DNA of 64,000 bases from Melioribacteraceae bacterium (GTDB lineage Bacteria; Bacteroidota; Ignavibacteria; Ignavibacteriales; Melioribacteraceae): the NCBI GenBank assembly GCA_021739765.1, contig JAIPBD010000004.1:62001-126000 (forward strand). The letters are read 5' to 3'. Shown here piece by piece: positions 50,829-60,944 of the stretch; position 1 is the stretch's first letter, and the number at the start of each line of letters is the position of its first letter. Both the position numbers and the translations under genes were made by a program. The notes beneath the pieces are model-generated. The model saw only the letters and a list, made by a program, of their open reading frames with translations, ran no database searches and was not told the origin of the DNA.

Positions 50829-52385
50829 ATGAAAGAAAAAAATAAGATATCTGTTCTTAAACCCTTAGTTGTTCTAATGGGTATGAGTTTGGTTTTATAT
50901 TTTGTAAACCGGGCTATTGATACACACTTGAACGAATTGGGTGAATCAATATTTGCTTCACTTTATTTTAAAGATCTTGGCAATTTTGTTAACTCTTTCG
51001 GCGGATTGTCGGAAGTTATTACTGCTGTATTAGGAATTGAGATTACAGCCGTTGCGATTATTGTACAATTGGCCGCGAATAAATACTCATCTAAGATTAT
51101 GGAGCTCTTTATTACGAATAAAGTAAACTTCGTGATAATTTCTATCTTTATCATAACTTCCATCAATACTATTCTTGTTTCAAATACAATTACGGAAGTT
51201 TACATACCTTACTGGAGTATCACATTTACTCTGTTTGCCGTATCCATCAGTTTATTATTAGTGATTCCTCATTTCAGTTATGTATTTAATTTTCTTCGTC
51301 CGGAAAATTTTCTTTTCTTCGTTAAACGCGACACAGTTAAAATAATAAAAAAGATAGCTGACGGTAAAAAGACATATTCGAAATCCGATAAGGATGAGGT
51401 TTCTGATAATATCACTTTTGTTGGTGATATTTTGTTGAATTCAGTCTATCAAGGCGATAGAGCAGTTGCAATTCTTTGTCTGGATACCCTTAGCAGTTTC
51501 GTATCCGATTATTTACCCTACAAGAAGCAGTTGCCGGATGAATGGTTTAGATTGACCGGAACTGAATCCCGTGATCCTGATTTCTCGAATTATTCCAATT
51601 TTGTATTAAGGACTATTGAGGAGCGCCGGGTAATTATTGAGCGTAAAGTTTTTCGTCTTTACGATGTTATTTATAATGTTACAAAGGCAACTTTGCGCGA
51701 TGTTGCTTCCGGTGTGCTTTACAATTCGGAAGCAATTGCACTAAAAGCAATTGAAACCAATGATAGTGGGGCGTTGCATACTTCTTTCCAATATATGAAT
51801 TCTTATTTAAGATTCGCGATCACGGGGAAGGATCCGCGTTCTGCTTTCAATACTTTAGAACATTACAGAATTATTGCGGAGAAATTAATTGAAACCGACC
51901 CCGATTTAGTTGAGCAAGTAAGTTTTTATTTCAAATATTATGGTCAGGAAGCTAATAAGTATGGAGTACTATTCATTCTTGAAACAGCTGCGCATGATTT
52001 GTGCAAACTAAATGAACTTGCATATTCTAAAAAAGCCCCCAATCGGGATAAACTGTTAGCCATGTTTCTAACATTGGACGAGAGAATGGACGAGGCATCT
52101 GAAAGCAAAGAGAGGTCGTTAATCGGCGTAAGGATTGCCCAAACACAATTGGCAGCATTTTATTTATTAAATGGTGCTGTTGATTTGGCAAGATTAATCT
52201 TCGAAGATATGAAAATAGAACCGTCATCAAGAATTAAGAAAATTGAGGAAATAATTTTTAGTACGACAAATGAAGAATTTTGGGAAATAACACCAAGAGG
52301 AATAAATTTTTATTATGTTGCGCCTGAACGAAGAAATGCTCTAAAACAATTTTTTACGTGGTTTGATCAAGATATTCCAAAATAA
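50829..52385 (+). CDS. Predicted membrane protein, DUF2254-like
   Basis: A 518-residue protein with four hydrophobic helices in the first 155 residues and a long soluble C-terminal helical part. The arrangement, and a stretch such as SEVITAVLGIEITAVAIIVQLAANKYS, is like the DUF2254 group of predicted membrane proteins, but I am not certain. The helical C-terminus has repeat-like segments such as QTQLAAFYLLNGAVDLARLIF. It is 169 bases upstream of gldL and on the same strand, but a T-rich stretch lies between, so it may not be in that operon. Function unknown. Confidence 0.65.
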   Translation: MKEKNKISVLKPLVVLMGMSLVLYFVNRAIDTHLNELGESIFASLYFKDLGNFVNSFGGLSEVITAVLGIEITAVAIIVQLAANKYSSKIMELFITNKVNFVIISIFIITSINTILVSNTITEVYIPYWSITFTLFAVSISLLLVIPHFSYVFNFLRPENFLFFVKRDTVKIIKKIADGKKTYSKSDKDEVSDNITFVGDILLNSVYQGDRAVAILCLDTLSSFVSDYLPYKKQLPDEWFRLTGTESRDPDFSNYSNFVLRTIEERRVIIERKVFRLYDVIYNVTKATLRDVASGVLYNSEAIALKAIETNDSGALHTSFQYMNSYLRFAITGKDPRSAFNTLEHYRIIAEKLIETDPDLVEQVSFYFKYYGQEANKYGVLFILETAAHDLCKLNELAYSKKAPNRDKLLAMFLTLDERMDEASESKERSLIGVRIAQTQLAAFYLLNGAVDLARLIFEDMKIEPSSRIKKIEEIIFSTTNEEFWEITPRGINFYYVAPERRNALKQFFTWFDQDIPK

Positions 52386-52554: not shown

Positions 52555-53109
52555 GTGGCAACAACTAATTCAAATGGGAACCAACCCAAAACCGGATTTG
52601 GACGTTACATGGTTTACACATTCATTCCACGCTATGCGAATAACGTGAATGGTATTGTTTACATGGGTGCTGCTATTCTTATCATCATCGTTGGACTTAG
52701 AGGTTTAGGTTCCATAGCTGGGGAAATAGCAATTGTGCCGAGATTTTTAATTGGCGACGATAATAAAGTATTACCCACATACGTTATGGGCGCTTTATTC
52801 TTAGAATTCTTCTTACTTTTTATTATGGCGATTGTTACATTCTTTACGCCCGAAGATGAACCGCATCAGGCTGGCGGAGCTTCTCATGGCGGCTCAGGCG
52901 AAGAAGCGGCTGTTGCTCGCACTTTGGCTAAATTTGAAAGTCCTGACTACGAAAAAGAATTGGCAAGATTGAAAAAATTAACTGATGAAGAAGTACAAAT
53001 GATTGAGACTTATCTGGATAAGTTTGATGAAATCTCTAAAAAGATTTTTGAAATACAAAAATCTAATGTTGAAGCATTAAGCAAGATGGCGCAATCTCTA
53101 AAACAATAA
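52555..53109 (+). CDS. gldL: GldL-like gliding/type IX secretion motor protein
   Basis: Inner-membrane protein of 184 residues resembling GldL, which with GldM forms the proton-driven motor of gliding and type IX secretion. Two helices are visible (about 33-55 and 76-97). The second contains a buried glutamate, Glu 84 in GALFLEFFLLF, like the conserved membrane glutamate of GldL. The C-terminal 80 residues form a charged helix (SPDYEKELARLKKLTDEEVQ), the usual cytoplasmic part of GldL. A glycine- and alanine-rich linker (about 103-117) lies between. It is shorter and more diverged than Flavobacterium GldL, so the call rests on architecture and on its neighbours. Confidence 0.72.
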   Translation: MATTNSNGNQPKTGFGRYMVYTFIPRYANNVNGIVYMGAAILIIIVGLRGLGSIAGEIAIVPRFLIGDDNKVLPTYVMGALFLEFFLLFIMAIVTFFTPEDEPHQAGGASHGGSGEEAAVARTLAKFESPDYEKELARLKKLTDEEVQMIETYLDKFDEISKKIFEIQKSNVEALSKMAQSLKQ

Positions 53110-53147
53110 TCCATAATATGTTTCAATCAAGTTAGAGGTTTAAAATT

Positions 53148-53843
53148 ATGTTAAAATTATTTTTACCAGCAGGAAATAAGAGTGTTGTTTATTTCATTCT
53201 GTATGTTGTGTTGATTACTGAATTATTGATTGTAATCACAGAACGTGATGAATTGGAAGAAAAAGAACACGCAATCCGTGATAAGATGATTGGATCAATT
53301 GCTGCTTCTTATAAGCAACCGGTTTTATTATTTATTCCGGTTACAGAATCTAATCACAATATCAGATCAAAAGAACCGAGTAAAACGATATTGCAACCGT
53401 TGGGTCTCGTTTCAGATGAAGAAAAACTAAATGTTCAATTTAGAGTTGATGTGGCGGAAGAATCTAGAAGAACTCCTCCAAATTGGCCGGATGGTGGAAT
53501 AACGTCGGACAATGGCACTGATAAGTATTCAATTCAAAAAAATAATGACGGAAGTGCAATTTTTCTCGCTGATTTGACGGCGACCGGAGAATATGTTTTT
53601 GATGTATTTTTTGAAGTTGAGAGGGTGTTGCCTACTTATCTTACTGATGAGTTATTGATCGCCCTTGCTGAAGAATTGGATCTGATTGAAGGCGCTTCGG
53701 GCGGAGGTCACGGCTCAGCGGCTACATCATTAGACGAAGTTACTATAAAACCTCTGATTGCAAAGAGCGAAACGGAAGGTTTTACTGTTATAGCTAAAGT
53801 TGTTGGTGGCGTTCAAAAACGTGAAGCAACTATTCAGTTTTAA
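53148..53843 (+). CDS. GldM-like motor protein, membrane-anchored part
   Basis: A 231-residue protein with one N-terminal transmembrane helix (about residues 13-31) and a periplasmic rest. This matches the start of GldM, whose helix sits inside the GldL ring. A charged segment ERDELEEKEHAIRDKM follows the helix, then a beta-rich domain and a glycine-rich loop (GASGGGHGS, about residue 187). A complete GldM has about 510 residues with four periplasmic domains, so this is less than half. The next gene may supply the remaining domains. Assignment is based on position after gldL and on topology; sequence similarity is weak to the eye. Confidence 0.6.
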   Translation: MLKLFLPAGNKSVVYFILYVVLITELLIVITERDELEEKEHAIRDKMIGSIAASYKQPVLLFIPVTESNHNIRSKEPSKTILQPLGLVSDEEKLNVQFRVDVAEESRRTPPNWPDGGITSDNGTDKYSIQKNNDGSAIFLADLTATGEYVFDVFFEVERVLPTYLTDELLIALAEELDLIEGASGGGHGSAATSLDEVTIKPLIAKSETEGFTVIAKVVGGVQKREATIQF

Positions 53844-53901
53844 AAATTTGTTATAGTTTTTGATTATTAGTGGAAATTAATTTCTGAATTTAGGAGAAAA
53901 A

Positions 53902-54981
53902 ATGAAGCGATTATTCATTTTATTTATCTTTATATCTTCTTTGATAATTGCACAAGTTCCATCAAATGTATCAGATACAGTTAAGGCTGTTTCTTTAAAG
54001 GAATTTAAGGTACCTTCCGACAAGAACATTGTGTTACAAGATGTATTGTCGGCAAGTTTTGCCGGTACTTTGCTTGATGCGAATGGAAGCGTTGTTAGGG
54101 AGTCTTCAAACGGAGTCCAAATTCCATCTGCGGATGAATTGGTTAAATTAACCCGCGGTGGTAGGGGAACAACAGTTCAATATTCCCTCTTGGAAACAAT
54201 TCCAAATCCGGGTACCTATTATATGAAGATAGATATTAATTTCCGCAGTGAAACCGGGAGTCGTTCGGCCACCGCATATTATATGGTAATCGTTGATTAC
54301 CCGACAATTGCGGCTCCACTTGAATTTTCCGACTCCTACTTATTCACCGAGCAGTTAAAATTTAGTTTTGCCACAATAGAATATGGTGATCCTACTCTCT
54401 ACACTTTTGATGTTCAGGATGCCAGCGGTTCAAGCATTGAATCAGGGGAAGGGCCAATTGTGGATATGGCCACAGCTTTTTCACAGGAAAAAAATGTTGA
54501 TAGAAGTATTCGGGTTGTGGGCATGTATAACGGTCAAGAATTTCAGTTTAAAAACCCGGTTGATGGCACAGTTCAGTCATCAACTTGGGAGTTTTTGCTG
54601 AAGGCACCACAAATGAGCATGTTTCATGTTTGGATTGATCCTGACAACAATCCAAATAACGCTGAAAATTCAATATTTTATCTTAATGATAAAGCAATGC
54701 TTCTCTACGTAGCCTTGATGCAACCGAATGCTAAAGGGGCTTATATTGCTGTCGGACCAAAAATTCGTGGATTGCAGGTACAATCAACTTCACCAATTAT
54801 TACAGGTGGAAGACCGATTGAGAGTGATCCATTCTCATTTATTCAACTAGATGTTGATAATGATTATGTTGAAAATATTATGGAATCTCCCGGAAGTGAG
54901 TTCGTTCAATTAACAATTACGTTTACAGATCAATTCAATCGAAGACATACCCAAAGTCTAGAGGCATATGTCATTAATTAG
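53902..54981 (+). CDS. Secreted GldM C-terminal-like protein
   Basis: A 359-residue exported protein with a cleavable signal peptide (residues 1-18, ending IIAQ) and predicted beta-sandwich domains, for instance PGTYYMKIDINFRSETGSRS and FEFLLKAPQMSMFHVWID-like strands. No transmembrane helix follows the signal peptide. Together with the preceding anchored protein it could form the periplasmic stalk that a single GldM provides elsewhere, or it could be a partner protein. It has an AGGAG ribosome binding site upstream of ATG 53902. It is probably in one operon with gldL and the barrel genes downstream. Confidence 0.58.
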   Translation: MKRLFILFIFISSLIIAQVPSNVSDTVKAVSLKEFKVPSDKNIVLQDVLSASFAGTLLDANGSVVRESSNGVQIPSADELVKLTRGGRGTTVQYSLLETIPNPGTYYMKIDINFRSETGSRSATAYYMVIVDYPTIAAPLEFSDSYLFTEQLKFSFATIEYGDPTLYTFDVQDASGSSIESGEGPIVDMATAFSQEKNVDRSIRVVGMYNGQEFQFKNPVDGTVQSSTWEFLLKAPQMSMFHVWIDPDNNPNNAENSIFYLNDKAMLLYVALMQPNAKGAYIAVGPKIRGLQVQSTSPIITGGRPIESDPFSFIQLDVDNDYVENIMESPGSEFVQLTITFTDQFNRRHTQSLEAYVIN

Positions 54982-54994
54982 TCATGGAATAAAT

Positions 54995-56509
54995 ATGTTC
55001 AAGTATTACAAGGTATTCATATTATTAATTTTTCTAGGTCTCTCTAATAGTCTTCTCGCTCAGCAAAGAGCTGTTGAAGATTTTATTAAGAAGATAGACG
55101 TTAAGTTAAAAGATGATGTTAAATATCTCAATTTACATTTTTACACTTATCGTCCAAGCGAAAACCCTGATCCAGAATTTAGGTCAATTCCCCGACCGGA
55201 AGGAAGGGAACCGTACTCTTTCGTTGATGATGAATATTACTCCTACGATATAGTGTTTTTAAAGGACGGCGTTGGTCTTGATTCAATTTATGTTCTATAC
55301 GTAAAACAAATAAAACAACCGGCTCCTACTGAGGGAGGTTTATTTGATCAGGCTGCCGCTACAAATGATACCACAATCGTATTAAAGTTTAACGACCTTT
55401 GGTATTTAAAAAATGAACAACGTTCCTATTATGACAAATTCCTTGAAATTATTCAGCAAAAACTGATCGAATCCGAAGATAATTATCAAGAAGTCCCGAC
55501 ATTACTCGGCTTAAATGTGGATAATCAAATTAAAACCAGCTTAGGAATGACGTCTCGGGATAATTCAGACTATCTTCGTTTTGAAAGAATTATGAGTCAT
55601 CACTGGTTTATGAAAGAACCGGAAAAAAGATCTGGGAGAGGCAGAGGAGGTTCTGCCGGAGCTGACTCACCATTTAGATTCGATGTCAGCCTTACAAAAA
55701 TAGGGTTCTCCCATGAAATGATGTCTTTTGGTAATGGCGTCGCCGGAGTGGAAATCTCATTCGAAGAACCGGTATTAAATTTATTGCCTTACCAATCAGG
55801 TGCAATGGCCGCCGGATCAAGAATATTATTCGCGATGGCGAATGATCCGGATATTAATAAATCTACATACTTAGACGCTCGTTTTCAAATCAGACTACCG
55901 CTCGGGAAACTTTACGATGCAATGCCTTTTGTAATACTTGATTCAACTACGCTCAATACAAGTACCTCAGTTGTCGGGGATATTTCGGTAACCCGTCCAT
56001 TTGATCTTCCATTTATGAGACTTTACTTCGCTTTTGGTGATCCTGTTTACACATCGCCGGAATACATTGTTAATAAGGGGGCGTCAAGATATGCGTATTA
56101 TTCTTTCAGCCAGGCCGAATTCACTTATTCCTTTTTCTGGAACACAAGTGAGATTAAGGAAGGACGGTTTAAACTTGATGTTGGCGGGGGCTATTATGAT
56201 ATCCACAAAGCGACATTAAATGCATCCGGTGGGATTGGTAAAAAAGAAGTAATTCAAGACAAATTTTTCCCTGTAATCGGTTTACAATATGCTTTTGTTC
56301 CGAGAAACAATCCCTTGTTTGGTGGAAGTACGAAATTCTTCGACGGTCAAGTGAAACTTAATACTTGGTTCAAAATTGCTGAGCTTGGCGATAATCAAGT
56401 TTTAAGATTCGAAGCAATGTACGTTTCTGATCCAATCACAAGAAAAAAGCGTGAATGGGAAACTTCTGGCGGTATTTTAGTTCAATTTAGATATAGATAT
56501 GGGATGTAG
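54995..56509 (+). CDS. Predicted outer-membrane beta-barrel protein A1
   Basis: A 504-residue exported protein with signal peptide MFKYYKVFILLIFLGLSNSLLAQ at about 1-23 when ATG 54995 is used; an earlier ATG at 54968 overlaps the previous gene. The N-terminal 190 residues are soluble, then an arginine/glycine-rich linker (GRGRGG, about 218) leads into a region of amphipathic strands. The last residues FRYRYGM have alternating hydrophobic positions and fit a barrel C-terminus. It is clearly related to the gene at 57951: both keep a S(R/K)DN(S/A)D motif, the linker and FFWNTSE. I do not recognise a named family. Confidence 0.7.
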   Translation: MFKYYKVFILLIFLGLSNSLLAQQRAVEDFIKKIDVKLKDDVKYLNLHFYTYRPSENPDPEFRSIPRPEGREPYSFVDDEYYSYDIVFLKDGVGLDSIYVLYVKQIKQPAPTEGGLFDQAAATNDTTIVLKFNDLWYLKNEQRSYYDKFLEIIQQKLIESEDNYQEVPTLLGLNVDNQIKTSLGMTSRDNSDYLRFERIMSHHWFMKEPEKRSGRGRGGSAGADSPFRFDVSLTKIGFSHEMMSFGNGVAGVEISFEEPVLNLLPYQSGAMAAGSRILFAMANDPDINKSTYLDARFQIRLPLGKLYDAMPFVILDSTTLNTSTSVVGDISVTRPFDLPFMRLYFAFGDPVYTSPEYIVNKGASRYAYYSFSQAEFTYSFFWNTSEIKEGRFKLDVGGGYYDIHKATLNASGGIGKKEVIQDKFFPVIGLQYAFVPRNNPLFGGSTKFFDGQVKLNTWFKIAELGDNQVLRFEAMYVSDPITRKKREWETSGGILVQFRYRYGM

Positions 56510-56518
56510 GGAGATAAA

Positions 56519-57904
56519 ATGAAAATGATTAAAAAATACATACTGCTTATTTTTATGATTCTCTCAATTTCATTATCGGCACAGGATAATACTAATAATG
56601 CAGCTGATGCCATTTCGGAGATGAATCTTATATTTTCCAATTTAGATTACAATACTATTGCATTTGACGATCTTCGTCAAAAGTGGTTTATATCCGATCC
56701 TGAATTGGTTCGTGACGTATTCAGCAGATTCGTTGTAACGAATTCGCTTAGAAAAAACGGATTACCGGTCAGTTTAGATTCAATTCAGGCGCAAGTGGAT
56801 TATATTTATGAAGGTGAAGTTATAATCGATTTACAACGCAGGTATTATGATAATGAAATTGATCAATTTGCATTTGTTCGTGCCGACTTGGTTTCTGCGG
56901 AAAATCCGGTTTACATGTTCGATCCTGTTGATGACGGGTTTTATCTTAAGTCAATCATTGGTCCGACTTTGTATGAAAAGTTAAAAGAACAAATTTATTT
57001 CTTCAGCAATATTTCAAAAGATCCATTTGATACTAAAACCGGTTACTACTTTGATGTTGAAATTAACGCTCTTAATGGCAGAATGATGTATTGGACTACC
57101 ACATCAAGCGCGAGAAATAAATATTTAGTGGCTCTCTTTTCAAAATGGGGACATAATAACATTTATTTTCCGGGCTGGTCATTGGGTGAAGTTGTGCTCG
57201 GTACAGAGTTAACTTATTACGAAAAACTTGGCGATGATCCGAGGAATTATAATTATAGAGTCAGATTAGGAACTTCAGTCCCTTCTGGCAAGGTTGCAAA
57301 ATCTGCAATTCCGGACGTGCCGATTTTTAAGTCATCGCAAAATATTTATTATAATATTTCCGGCGATTTACTTAAACCGTTCTGGGATATTGAGGACATC
57401 TATATTGAACTTGAAGGAATGTTCGCTTTTGGGGAATACACTTATAGTGATTATGAACTTAAAAGGAAAACTGAATTCTATTCAATGCAAAACTTCTTCG
57501 GCATGAAGGTCGAATATCGAAATATTTTTAATTTATTCGATCTTGGAATGTTTGAAGCAGGAGCGAGAATATTTAGTCATGATATGCATCATTTTGAAGC
57601 TGATGCTTCGAGGCTTACAGCACTTGATGCAAATAAGGGACTATTTGATAAATTTACTCATTTCTTCGGTCTTGATTGGGGAGTTCGTAAAAGAGGCGGT
57701 TTAGTTCAACATCATGTGATGGCGGATTTTGGATATTCTTCAGCCGGTTACGGTTATGTTGGGATGAGAGCAAAGGTTACGGTAAGTGACACTTACGGAT
57801 ACGAAATAGTGTTTTATAATAATTTAGGACTGGATCCTGCTGAGTATCCATATCGTAATGATACTTATTTAATGTTTTCTTCAATTCTTCATATAAACTA
57901 TTGA
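56519..57904 (+). CDS. Predicted outer-membrane protein B1
   Basis: A 461-residue exported protein with signal peptide (about 1-21, ending SLSAQ). Its N-terminal part has the block FDDLRQKWFISDPELVRD, followed by QRRYYDNEIDQF and, further on, SARNKYLVALFSKWG. The second half is strand-rich and ends in SSILHINY, with a terminal aromatic residue as in outer-membrane barrels. It is a clear paralogue of the gene at 59480 and lies 9 bases after A1, with AGGGAG before the ATG. No named family is recognised; it is not like GldN. Confidence 0.7.
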   Translation: MKMIKKYILLIFMILSISLSAQDNTNNAADAISEMNLIFSNLDYNTIAFDDLRQKWFISDPELVRDVFSRFVVTNSLRKNGLPVSLDSIQAQVDYIYEGEVIIDLQRRYYDNEIDQFAFVRADLVSAENPVYMFDPVDDGFYLKSIIGPTLYEKLKEQIYFFSNISKDPFDTKTGYYFDVEINALNGRMMYWTTTSSARNKYLVALFSKWGHNNIYFPGWSLGEVVLGTELTYYEKLGDDPRNYNYRVRLGTSVPSGKVAKSAIPDVPIFKSSQNIYYNISGDLLKPFWDIEDIYIELEGMFAFGEYTYSDYELKRKTEFYSMQNFFGMKVEYRNIFNLFDLGMFEAGARIFSHDMHHFEADASRLTALDANKGLFDKFTHFFGLDWGVRKRGGLVQHHVMADFGYSSAGYGYVGMRAKVTVSDTYGYEIVFYNNLGLDPAEYPYRNDTYLMFSSILHINY

Positions 57905-57950
57905 TATTCGTTTGCCTAAAAGGAGAATAGAAAACATCAATTCGTGGTTT

Positions 57951-59480
57951 ATGAAACTTGGCTTTATAATTTTATTAGTTTGTTTTACAATTTCAATTTC
58001 TGCTCAATCAAAAGAGCAGGAATTGTTATTGTATTATAAATTGATTGAAAAGAAGCTCGAAGAAGATCAAACCTATCTCAGTGTTAAATCATTATCAATC
58101 AATACTCAAGATATTAAAGCTAAAATTTCTGAAAATGTTCCTCGATATTACAATTCGAATCCACTCGTATTTAATGAAAAAGACGGATACACTTATTATT
58201 TCCTTTATTTAGATGAAACGATCGATATTGACTCAATCGTGCTAATCGGAATCGTTGAGGAAATCGCACCGTCCGTTTCTACCGAAGGTGCCGGTATTTT
58301 CGCAGCGGCTGCTGCGCCTACCGATCCAATACGTGAAACTGTTTTTAAATTTAGAGACATTCATTCTCTGATGAAAACTAATCCCGATATTTACAAAAAT
58401 TTAGTTGAATTAATTAGTGATCAGCTTCAATCAGATCCGCTACTTGAACCTCGTGAATTGAATAATATTGCTGAAAAATCAAAGCTCCAGAAAAGTAAGG
58501 GAATTTCTTCTAAAGACAACGCTGATTTTCTTAATTACAATTATGTAAATGGACGCCATCATTATCCCGAAATAAAGAAAGAAACTTCCAATAGAAGGGG
58601 GAGAGGAAGGGGAAGTGCCAGCGCTTCTTCCGGAACAGATTATAAAATTGACGCAAGTTTATCACATGTAACTTTTTTTAGTAAGGAAATTGATTTCGGG
58701 TTTTCTGGTGTTGCAGCAGAAATAAATTTTGATGAGTACCTGCTAAATATGTTGCCTTGGCAACCCATGACTATGAGCATTGGTTTGCGAGGATTAATTG
58801 CACTTTCCGGCGACAAAGAAGATATGATGAAAGATTATATTCTTGATTTACGTATTCTTGGAAGAGCAAGACTCGATTTATCCTCGGTAGTAACTTCACT
58901 TCCTTGGATATTCCTCGATAAACCCGGTTTAAACGTTGGATCAGGAATAGTTTTTGATCTCAAAACAACAAGAGCGTACGGCTTACCTTTTATAAATCTT
59001 TATTTTTCCGGTGGATCTAATGACGTAACCACTCCATACACCACATTTCTGGAAAATGGGGTTGAGACCGCATATTTTTCATTTAATCAATGGGAAACTT
59101 CTTTTTCATTTTTTTGGAATACCAGCGAAAAAGCAAAATTCAGATTTAAATCAGATCTGGGTTTGGCGGGATTTAATGTTGTAAAAGCGACCTACGGCAC
59201 ATCGCCTTCCGAAGAAAAAGATTATACTGCCTTTTCTCCGATATTTAGACTTGAGGGTACTTTCGTGCCAAGCGAAGGCAACGAGTTGTTTGGAGCAAAA
59301 ATTCGATTGTTCGATAGTGTAATTAAAGGTGGATTTTGGCTGAAAGTTTTAACACTTGATGATGTTCATACTTTCAGATTTGAAACAACATTTATATTAC
59401 AACCCATGTTCAGACCTCGAAAGATTTGGGAGCCCGAAGGTCCAAGTATGTTTCAAATTAGATATAGATACGGATTCTAA
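57951..59480 (+). CDS. Predicted outer-membrane beta-barrel protein A2
   Basis: Paralogue of A1, 509 residues from ATG 57951, which gives a proper signal peptide (MKLGFIILLVCFTISISAQ). A TTG at 57912 is also in frame but lacks a ribosome binding site upstream. The strong AAAAGGAGA at 57918-57926 points to a start near 57936, where the in-frame codon is ATC, so the true start is open. Shared with A1 are the SKDNADFLN motif, the linker RRGRGRGSASASS, the LNMLPWQP region and SFSFFWNTSE. The C-terminus MFQIRYRYGF is typical of an outer-membrane barrel strand. Confidence 0.7.
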   Translation: MKLGFIILLVCFTISISAQSKEQELLLYYKLIEKKLEEDQTYLSVKSLSINTQDIKAKISENVPRYYNSNPLVFNEKDGYTYYFLYLDETIDIDSIVLIGIVEEIAPSVSTEGAGIFAAAAAPTDPIRETVFKFRDIHSLMKTNPDIYKNLVELISDQLQSDPLLEPRELNNIAEKSKLQKSKGISSKDNADFLNYNYVNGRHHYPEIKKETSNRRGRGRGSASASSGTDYKIDASLSHVTFFSKEIDFGFSGVAAEINFDEYLLNMLPWQPMTMSIGLRGLIALSGDKEDMMKDYILDLRILGRARLDLSSVVTSLPWIFLDKPGLNVGSGIVFDLKTTRAYGLPFINLYFSGGSNDVTTPYTTFLENGVETAYFSFNQWETSFSFFWNTSEKAKFRFKSDLGLAGFNVVKATYGTSPSEEKDYTAFSPIFRLEGTFVPSEGNELFGAKIRLFDSVIKGGFWLKVLTLDDVHTFRFETTFILQPMFRPRKIWEPEGPSMFQIRYRYGF

Positions 59481-60892
59481 TGTTTAATAATAATATATAT
59501 CTTCGCCTCATTATTATTCTTATGATTTCAGCTCTTTGTAGCTCAAAAAGTGTTGCTCAAGAGATGTCCGATAGTATTATGGTTGTAGAAGCCAAAGAAA
59601 TATATCGTAATATGGAATATAGCACGGTTTCTTTCGATGATCTCAAACCAAAATGGTACATAACTGACCCTGTTTTTGTCAGGGAAATTTTCAACAGGAT
59701 AGTTGTAAAAAACGCACTCAGATATAATGGGGAAAAACCTTCCAGAGAATTGTTAGAGGAAAAAGTTGAGGATGTTTATAACGGTAGTGTTTTTATTGAG
59801 CTCAGAAGAAGATATTACGATGATGAAATTGAAATCCTAAGATTTTTTTCTGAAGCAAATCTTAACAACGACAGCTCCGACTATTTCTTTGATCCGTTGA
59901 TTGATTATGTAATGATAAGGGATATAGTCGGTGTTGAGCTTTATGATAACTTAAAACAACTGTTTTATTCCCATACTGATCTTACCAAAAAATCGTTTGA
60001 TAACCAGTTGATGTACAGTTATGATATTTATCTGAATCTGTTTCGGCCTAAATTGATGTTTTGGACACTGACAACTCAAGCAAGAAATAAATACTTATTG
60101 AGTTTTTTCGGTCAGTGGGGAAATGATTACATCAGCATACCCGGTTGGCATTATCCTGCATATTTTTCAGGAATTGAACTAACCTACATCGATTCTGTAG
60201 TGAATAATCAACCTAAATTTGCATATTCAGCTAATATCGGAATATCGACTCCGGTTAGAGAACCGCAATTGAAATTAAATACTGACGAATTTGGTCAGCG
60301 TCTCTTCTACACAGGCACACAATTCTACATGAAACTCCAGGGCAATCCGCTTATATTTATTGATCCGGAATTGGATGATTTCGATTTTACACTCGAATTT
60401 GTCGCTTCAATGAGTGAAAATAGTGTTGCCGACATGGGTATTAACTACGATTCCAAATTTTTCTCAACACGAAATTATTTTGTGCTGTTTGCCAGATACA
60501 ACGATCTGATGAACTTTATGGATATGGGATGGCTGCATGCTGGATTTGGAATTACGGCATACGATGTTGAACAGTATTTGTTAGACCCGCGACAAACCAG
60601 TTTGCAATCAATAACTTCGGATGGAATTGCCGGCTGGAAAGCTGGAATTGCAATGGAGGGCGGCATATCAAACTTCGGTGGATTACTGCAATATAACTTC
60701 GATCTTTTACTGAACTTTAACTTTTCCGATGCTCTTGGAGGATTTGGTTTCAAAAGCAGCTTTACAATTAGCAATAACATCGGATTTGAATTCAAATATT
60801 TAAAAAGCATAAGGCTGTCATCCGATCCTTTACCGTTTTATAAACTGGACAGTTATTTGGTTTTCTCGCCCATAATTAGAATTAACTATTAG
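59480..60892 (+). CDS. Predicted outer-membrane protein B2
   Basis: Paralogue of B1, 470 residues with a signal peptide (about 1-26, ending SVAQ). The conserved blocks are present: FDDLKPKWYITDPVFVRE, RRRYYDDEIEILRFF, TQARNKYLLSFFGQWG and a terminal strand SPIIRINY. The start ATG shares a base with the A2 stop, so A2 and B2 are translationally coupled, which suggests a complex. The order A1-B1-A2-B2 shows a duplication of the pair as a unit. Confidence 0.7.
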   Translation: MFNNNIYLRLIIILMISALCSSKSVAQEMSDSIMVVEAKEIYRNMEYSTVSFDDLKPKWYITDPVFVREIFNRIVVKNALRYNGEKPSRELLEEKVEDVYNGSVFIELRRRYYDDEIEILRFFSEANLNNDSSDYFFDPLIDYVMIRDIVGVELYDNLKQLFYSHTDLTKKSFDNQLMYSYDIYLNLFRPKLMFWTLTTQARNKYLLSFFGQWGNDYISIPGWHYPAYFSGIELTYIDSVVNNQPKFAYSANIGISTPVREPQLKLNTDEFGQRLFYTGTQFYMKLQGNPLIFIDPELDDFDFTLEFVASMSENSVADMGINYDSKFFSTRNYFVLFARYNDLMNFMDMGWLHAGFGITAYDVEQYLLDPRQTSLQSITSDGIAGWKAGIAMEGGISNFGGLLQYNFDLLLNFNFSDALGGFGFKSSFTISNNIGFEFKYLKSIRLSSDPLPFYKLDSYLVFSPIIRINY

Positions 60893-60944
60893 AAATTCGG
60901 GCATTTTCTGTAATTAAAAATTGATAATGGGGAAGTACCTAAAA

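Follow-up and report, generated by a model that had tools for sequence, protein, structure and literature searches.

A conserved GldLM-like gene cluster with tandem outer-membrane protein candidates and a giant type IX secretion cargo gene in Melioribacteraceae

A 64,000-nucleotide stretch of the genome of a Melioribacteraceae bacterium (contig JAIPBD010000004.1, positions 62,001 to 126,000; hereafter, the window) carries, at 52555-60892 on the forward strand, seven genes that we call L, M1, M2, A1, B1, A2, and B2. They lead directly into an open reading frame (ORF) for a giant repetitive surface protein with a sorting tail of the type IX secretion system (T9SS). We tentatively favor, at somewhat less than an even chance, the view that the cluster encodes an accessory proton-driven envelope machine dedicated to this giant adhesin, in which a GldLM-like motor would move or load the adhesin via the barrels of A and B. 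The initial annotation, made from the sequence alone, had placed all seven ORFs correctly and in the right order and had ended the cluster at 60892. The seven genes stand; the unit, however, runs on into the giant ORF and a lipoprotein-like gene behind it. The giant T9SS cargo protein, overlooked in that earlier reading, is the best clue to function.

In the machine that we envisage, L would form an inner-membrane ring bearing the proton-binding glutamate, and M1 and M2 together would form the periplasmic axle, a GldM-like shaft made of two chains; we infer both the proton drive of this motor and its stoichiometry. The axle would push, presumably by contact of M2 with A and B, the periplasmic N-terminal domains of the latter, whose C-terminal barrels would be embedded in the outer membrane. 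The giant protein, composed of immunoglobulin (Ig)-like repeats, would be exported via the SprA translocon of the genome, and the movement of A and B would displace it or load it along the surface, as in gliding motility.

Gene order, conservation, and the giant cargo

The genes of the cluster are closely spaced. The gaps are 38 bases (L-M1), 58 (M1-M2), -14 (M2-A1), 9 (A1-B1), 7 (B1-A2), and -1 (A2-B2), and no intergenic gap exceeds 58 bases from L through the start of the giant gene at 60921. The true start of A1 is possibly an internal ATG at codon 10.

A scan of 84,980 species genomes by exact match to short peptide patterns yielded eight L loci, in Ignavibacteriales, Melioribacteraceae, or Bacteroidetes metagenome-assembled genomes (numbers prefixed with L, G, or f below are our handles for loci, genomes, and families). 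The order L-M1-M2-A-B is present in 8/8 of them. Both A-B pairs occur in five and a single pair in L010; L006 and L008 are truncated. Conservation was further assessed in a fixed sample of 246 class genomes, 44 of them in the order, and in phylum draws of 148 and 321 genomes. L matches (E ≤ 1e-3) occur in 97 of the 246 class genomes and reach at least 160 bits in only 11, all of which also have A with B beside it. A matches occur in 29 of these genomes, the 17 strong ones being those 11 plus G157, G008, G013, G023, G102, and G131. B matches were found in 13 of the 321 phylum genomes, all within the class and all with A and L in the genome. Thus, A and B are present in other genomes with L, contrary to the possibility of their absence raised in the initial annotation.

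At 23 of the 24 fetched L-M1-M2 loci, in f1, f2, and f14 of the draw, A-B directly follows M2; the sole locus without A-B is G125. These loci comprise the window, L005-L012, G009, G073, G079, G106, G140, G149, G169, G183, G218, G234, G157, G125, G131, G013, and G023 (locus L119), and they are not 24 independent cases, since some, such as L006/L007 and L008/G234, are nearly identical to each other. Two more genomes show M2-A-B and were left uncounted, namely G008, at a contig end, and G102 (L118), where L and M1 were not seen in the ORF list. Where frames overlap, the ORF lists retain only the longest, which may conceal a gene; the B of G013 was first hidden in this way and was later seen in the B tree and the phylum search. 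The earlier suggestion of a divergent GldLM-type motor joined to A and B is supported by this gene order; profile-profile similarity to canonical GldL and GldM is only marginal.

The giant ORF begins at 60921 on the forward strand, runs to the end of the window (64000), and continues beyond it; in full (L044:22-18429), it encodes 6,135 amino acids (aa). Its repeats lie about 92 aa apart, its composition is 15.8% Ser and 10.0% Thr with one Cys, and Pfam assigns it Kre9_KNH Ig-like repeats (96.4 bits). The C-terminal end matches Por_Secre_tail (37.8 bits, cut-off 27) and is a type A T9SS sorting tail (TIGR04183, 45.8 bits, cut-off 23). The same layout, with tails over both cut-offs, recurs in G106 (about 5,400 aa), G009 (4,635), G169 (5,237), and G234 (4,833); the five genomes with a giant gene read to its end were selected for having a large ORF behind B2. 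Incomplete large ORFs downstream of the last B in L005, L007, L009, L010, and L012, whose tails are not reached, are 39-44% identical to the giant protein of the window over 707-1750 columns. Taken together, 10 of the 20 readable loci have a giant gene downstream of the last B (five read to the end and five partial), in both f1 and f2; the remaining four of the 24 loci, L006, L008, L011, and G218, end too close to the cluster to be read for it.

The candidate motor and its putative outer-membrane partners

L (52555..53109), the predicted motor ring subunit, has two membrane helices by hydropathy, at residues 33-51 and 77-95, with E84 within helix 2 and E100 behind it; the predicted topology includes a cytoplasmic tail. 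E84 is identical in 27/27 L relatives and E100 in 22/27, and E84 is still invariant in 20 diverse L proteins, long forms included. GldL has E49 in helix 2 and E59 after it, in places analogous to those of E84 and E100, and the helix-2 glutamate of GldL is aligned with E84 in a marginal hhalign alignment. E49 is reported to be needed for motor function (PMC8986121). The hhalign probabilities against 30 canonical loci are weak (12.9% for L and 30.5% for M). The two helices and the helix-2 glutamate give L a GldL-like layout, despite this weak result and the profile failure described below; common descent with GldL is unproven.

Five long L forms of other families (L101:7466-8809, L112:9642-10955, L100:8495-9853, L103:8801-10324, and L116:8941-10371) have four hydrophobic stretches each, the last two of which are the L core. 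Four of them are in the alignment in which the glutamate is invariant, L116 being left out. We take this four-stretch layout to be MotA-like, and the long forms are possibly a bridge between GldL-like and MotA-like motors. Weak L matches in families such as f16, f17, f21, and f29 were not counted as the same system, because their neighbors are other genes, and a tblastn search of plasmids with L gave no match.

The initial annotation regarded M1 (53148..53843) and M2 (53902..54981) as two GldM-like proteins. Compared by hhalign with alignment A7, made of ten single-chain GldM-like proteins from other families, M1 covers columns 10-147 (97.4%, E 9e-12) and M2 columns 252-397 (95.9%, E 6e-9). 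Since they match opposite ends of one single-chain protein, the idea of two separate GldM proteins was rejected, and M1 and M2 are best read, from these alignments, as two halves of one GldM-like axle. M1 has a single membrane helix carrying E25, which is retained in 22/27 relatives, and a short periplasmic domain. M2, the putative periplasmic C-terminal half, has its own hydrophobic, signal-like N-terminus; it has no Pfam domain, and hence no peptidoglycan-binding domain.

Two A-B pairs follow, A1 (54968..56509) with B1 (56519..57904) and A2 (57912..59480) with B2 (59480..60892). The duplication noticed at the outset is confirmed by 32.5% identity between A1 and A2 (507 aligned columns, E 7e-80) and 30.0% between B1 and B2 (464 columns, E 8e-80). 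Likewise, the motifs FFWNTSE and RGRG for A, and FDDL..KW..(S/T)DP and ARNKYL for B, occur once per copy, the FDDL motif in the N-terminal domain of B; hydropathy gives hydrophobic, signal-like N-terminal stretches in all four proteins; and the aromatic or Met C-terminal ends claimed for the window copies are there. In the wider family, the loosened FFWNTSE occurs in 33/38 A proteins and the C-terminal INY in 34/37 B proteins. RGRG was rejected as a signature of the A family, even RGR being present in only 10/38, and the C-terminal residue of A varies (F 20, L 11, M 3, V 2, K 1, N 1; n = 38).

Alternating hydrophobicity supports an outer-membrane barrel for A and, less firmly, for B. From residue 220 to the end of A the mean z is 2.71, with values above 2 in 33/38 proteins; from residue 165 to the end of B it is 1.92, with values above 2 in 14/37. 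The M2 control gave a mean z of 1.12 (above 2 in 0/9), and the N-terminal domains of A (mean z 0.09) and B (-0.25) show no such pattern.

Phylogenetic trees built from 38 A and 37 B sequences place the second copies together across f1 and f2 (support 100/99 for A and 99/94 for B). The first A copies also form one clade (98/95), whereas the first B copies are not resolved into one. The single copies of f11 and f14 fall outside both A clades and, in the B tree, closer to the second copies (94/68). These trees point to an A-B duplication before the split of f1 and f2, clearly for A and less so for B. Pair loss in both directions, with G079 retaining the first pair and L010 the second, suggests joint gain and loss of A and B. 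Families f4, f14, and f22 have related L-M-X-Y clusters, in which a single-chain GldM-like gene precedes X and Y. X is similar, over 108-120 columns, to the C-terminal portion of A (89% and 86%), and Y is similar to B (60% and 90%). In f4/f22, the second of these genes shows similarity to A as well (85%); because it thus resembles both, the barrels of A and B may share ancestry.

Known domains gave little help with these five families. Searches of Pfam, NCBIfam, and PDB with L, M1, M2, A, and B returned only noise, and neither GldL nor GldM is among the NCBIfam matches of L, M1, and M2 up to E 1. PDB sequence searches with profiles of L, M1, M2, A, B, the wide L set, and the single-chain M set gave nothing credible, and Pfam searches with members of alignments A4, A5, and A6 again gave only noise.

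Type IX secretion and rival explanations

SprA is present in 244 of the 246 class genomes and sorting-tail cargo in 246/246 (at most 22 candidates were scored per genome), while canonical GldL and GldN exceed their cut-offs in 0/246. GldL exceeds its cut-off in 36 of 148 phylum genomes, none of them from this class. Therefore, T9SS export in the class must use unrecognized motor parts or none. A published survey (PMC11705866) lists PorV, SprA, and Plug in Melioribacter and Ignavibacterium and no other T9SS protein, so that no motor is recognized in it. The initial annotation rightly found neither gldN nor sprA adjoining the cluster; the window's genome has no match to TIGR03523 (gldN) up to E 0.01, and its SprA lies elsewhere.

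These observations would fit a T9SS energizer of the lineage that replaces GldLM-GldKN, with A and B passing torque to the SprA translocon. A further point in its favor comes from other families, where genes for long L-like proteins immediately precede one for a PorU-type sortase. Yet SprA and sorting-tail cargo are present in all 44 drawn order genomes, and the full system is found in 12 of them, leaving 32 genomes that have export without it; another, undetected motor in these 32 is conceivable. Because of this patchy distribution against that of SprA, a general T9SS motor was rejected and the energizer appears unlikely to us; judging from the same counts, the cluster is accessory, and T9SS export across the order does not as a rule require it.

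The long L-like proteins deserve mention in their own right. In L101:7466-14527, L103:8801-15727, L112:3834-13415, and L116:8941-16139, proteins of 437-507 aa are encoded directly before genes for 1,793-1,900 aa. The large genes of L101 and L116 match PorU sortase models under the curated cut-off, and those of L103 and L112 are 24-30% identical to that of L101. In L112, genes for a 300-aa L-like protein and a 478-aa GldM-like protein precede the long L and the PorU-type gene. The long L forms beside PorU-type genes may be T9SS motors of the lineage.

Several results weigh against a GldLM-like machine that serves the giant adhesin. L fails the curated GldL profile TIGR03513, a match that the initial annotation had made its own test, so that its GldL-like protein survives as two helices with a buried glutamate and not as a profile member. 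In the window's genome, the best scores to TIGR03513 (7 bits) and to the GldM profile TIGR03517 (13.5 bits) lie away from the cluster and under cut-off. Against canonical GldL, the widened L set scores 31.2, a bare margin over the best of 60 block-shuffled decoys (29.7); the nine-row L profile scores 24.5, below the best decoy (26.5); and the top GldL match of the broader L alignment (A6) falls outside the membrane helices. The single-chain M set exceeds its decoys as barely against canonical GldM (38.9 versus 35.4 for the best of 60; 36.7 with one row swapped). The sorting tail is of type A, whereas that of SprB from Flavobacterium johnsoniae is of type B (PMC12635249). Furthermore, no SprF-like carrier was identified, neither PorP nor SprF being among the Pfam matches of the A/B family members, with no genome-wide search dedicated to SprF made. 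FliG is present in 5/12 carriers of the system and 24/32 non-carriers (p 0.07, kinship uncorrected), and absent from the window's genome and 7/12 carriers versus 8/32 non-carriers; fewer flagella among carriers is only a trend, a hint. Finally, the giant gene is not next in 10 of the 20 readable loci (G140, G183, G149, G073, G079, G157, G131, G013, G023, and G125), being missing after the last B or, in G125, after M2.

This last result suits a Tol/Ton-like machine for the outer-membrane assembly or export of something other than an adhesin (a lipid, polysaccharide, or lipoprotein), for which the giant gene would be a bystander. In G073, moreover, a lipoprotein-like gene follows B2 with no giant gene between. 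On the other hand, 10 loci, from f1 and f2 alike, have the giant gene immediately behind their last B, and in the window it lies 28 bases from B2. We consider the bystander explanation improbable, and continue to prefer an accessory machine for the giant adhesin.

Much less probable still, and in our view very remote, is a defense system, against phages or otherwise, with a 5:2 motor at its base like that of Zorya. Elsewhere in the class, L-like proteins do lie beside genes that resemble large ATPases by eye (L102, L107, and L115). PADLOC, however, searched up to E 1 with L, M1, M2, the upstream DUF2254 protein, and a single A and B (A1 and B1), has no matching family, and the partners in our cluster are a giant secreted protein and proteins probably of the outer membrane. 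A Zorya-like defense was rejected, there being no ZorA/ZorB family match in PADLOC up to the same E. The L-like genes in question encode 325-393 aa and overlap or abut the large genes (L102:9171-14956, L107:9293-12521, and L115:9018-12016).

Genes on both flanks recur with the cluster. Behind the giant gene and outside the window lies a lipoprotein-like gene of 287 aa (L044:18447-19310). A gene of this family (281-293 aa), judged lipoprotein-like by eye, follows the giant gene in G000, G106, G169, and G234 and lies about 8 kb off in G009; the lipoprotein-like gene of G073 is of the same family. Upstream of L, at 50829..52385 on the forward strand, a gene for a DUF2254 membrane protein (PF10011, 41.6 bits, cut-off 28.8) ends 169 bases away. 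It is upstream of L in 17 of the 24 loci and was not found there in L010, G140, G079, G125, G131, G013, and G023; the protein may belong to the system. A subtilase gene whose product carries a T9SS sorting tail is located upstream of the DUF2254 gene in G149, G183, and G169 (L128:363-3419, L130:224-3622, and L131:11881-15282).

Comparison with known motors and gliding systems

The putative motor shares with MotAB, TolQR, ExbBD, and other 5:2 motors a predicted ring and a single-helix axle with acidic residues; it differs from them in lacking any profile match and any Pfam domain in M2. With GldLM/PorLM of Bacteroidota it has in common a two-helix ring protein with a helix-2 glutamate and, next in the gene order L then M, a partner that has one helix and an extended periplasmic region; a giant T9SS-exported protein is the likely load. 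Here, in contrast, the curated profiles are not matched, M is in two chains, A-B pairs follow, no gldN was found in the window's genome, and close relatives without the system keep SprA.

GldLM powers the movement of SprB, an F. johnsoniae adhesin that is about 6,500 aa long (PMC9389320 and PMC13104615). Our cluster resembles SprB/SprF in that a giant repetitive T9SS cargo, of about 5-6 thousand aa, is encoded beside envelope proteins. In the current model for F. johnsoniae (PMC12635249), a disulfide bond ties SprF to GldK on a track that moves. In contrast to this Cys-linked contact, A and B are poor in cysteines, with none past residue 35 in 35/38 A and 28/37 B proteins; a disulfide linkage of the SprF-GldK type is therefore unlikely here. 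It is conceivable, if rather doubtful, that the cluster is a second GldLM-related gliding machine, of an Ignavibacteria-type lineage without the GldK/GldN ring, in which duplicated A-B barrel pairs would replace both ring and track and carry the giant adhesin of the same operon. Among the matches listed in the open-access literature, subscription papers and preprints being outside this scope, no title or abstract opening describes such an operon, and the machinery is possibly a previously undescribed version of the bacterial gliding apparatus.

Our cluster, along with the longer L-like genes beside PorU-type genes of related families, provides concrete candidates for the missing divergent motors of the lineage. 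Five protein families that match nothing in Pfam would acquire a role open to experiment. Furthermore, should A and B link the motor directly to the outer membrane, they would make a simpler system in which to ask how a rotary motor of the inner membrane moves outer-membrane proteins.

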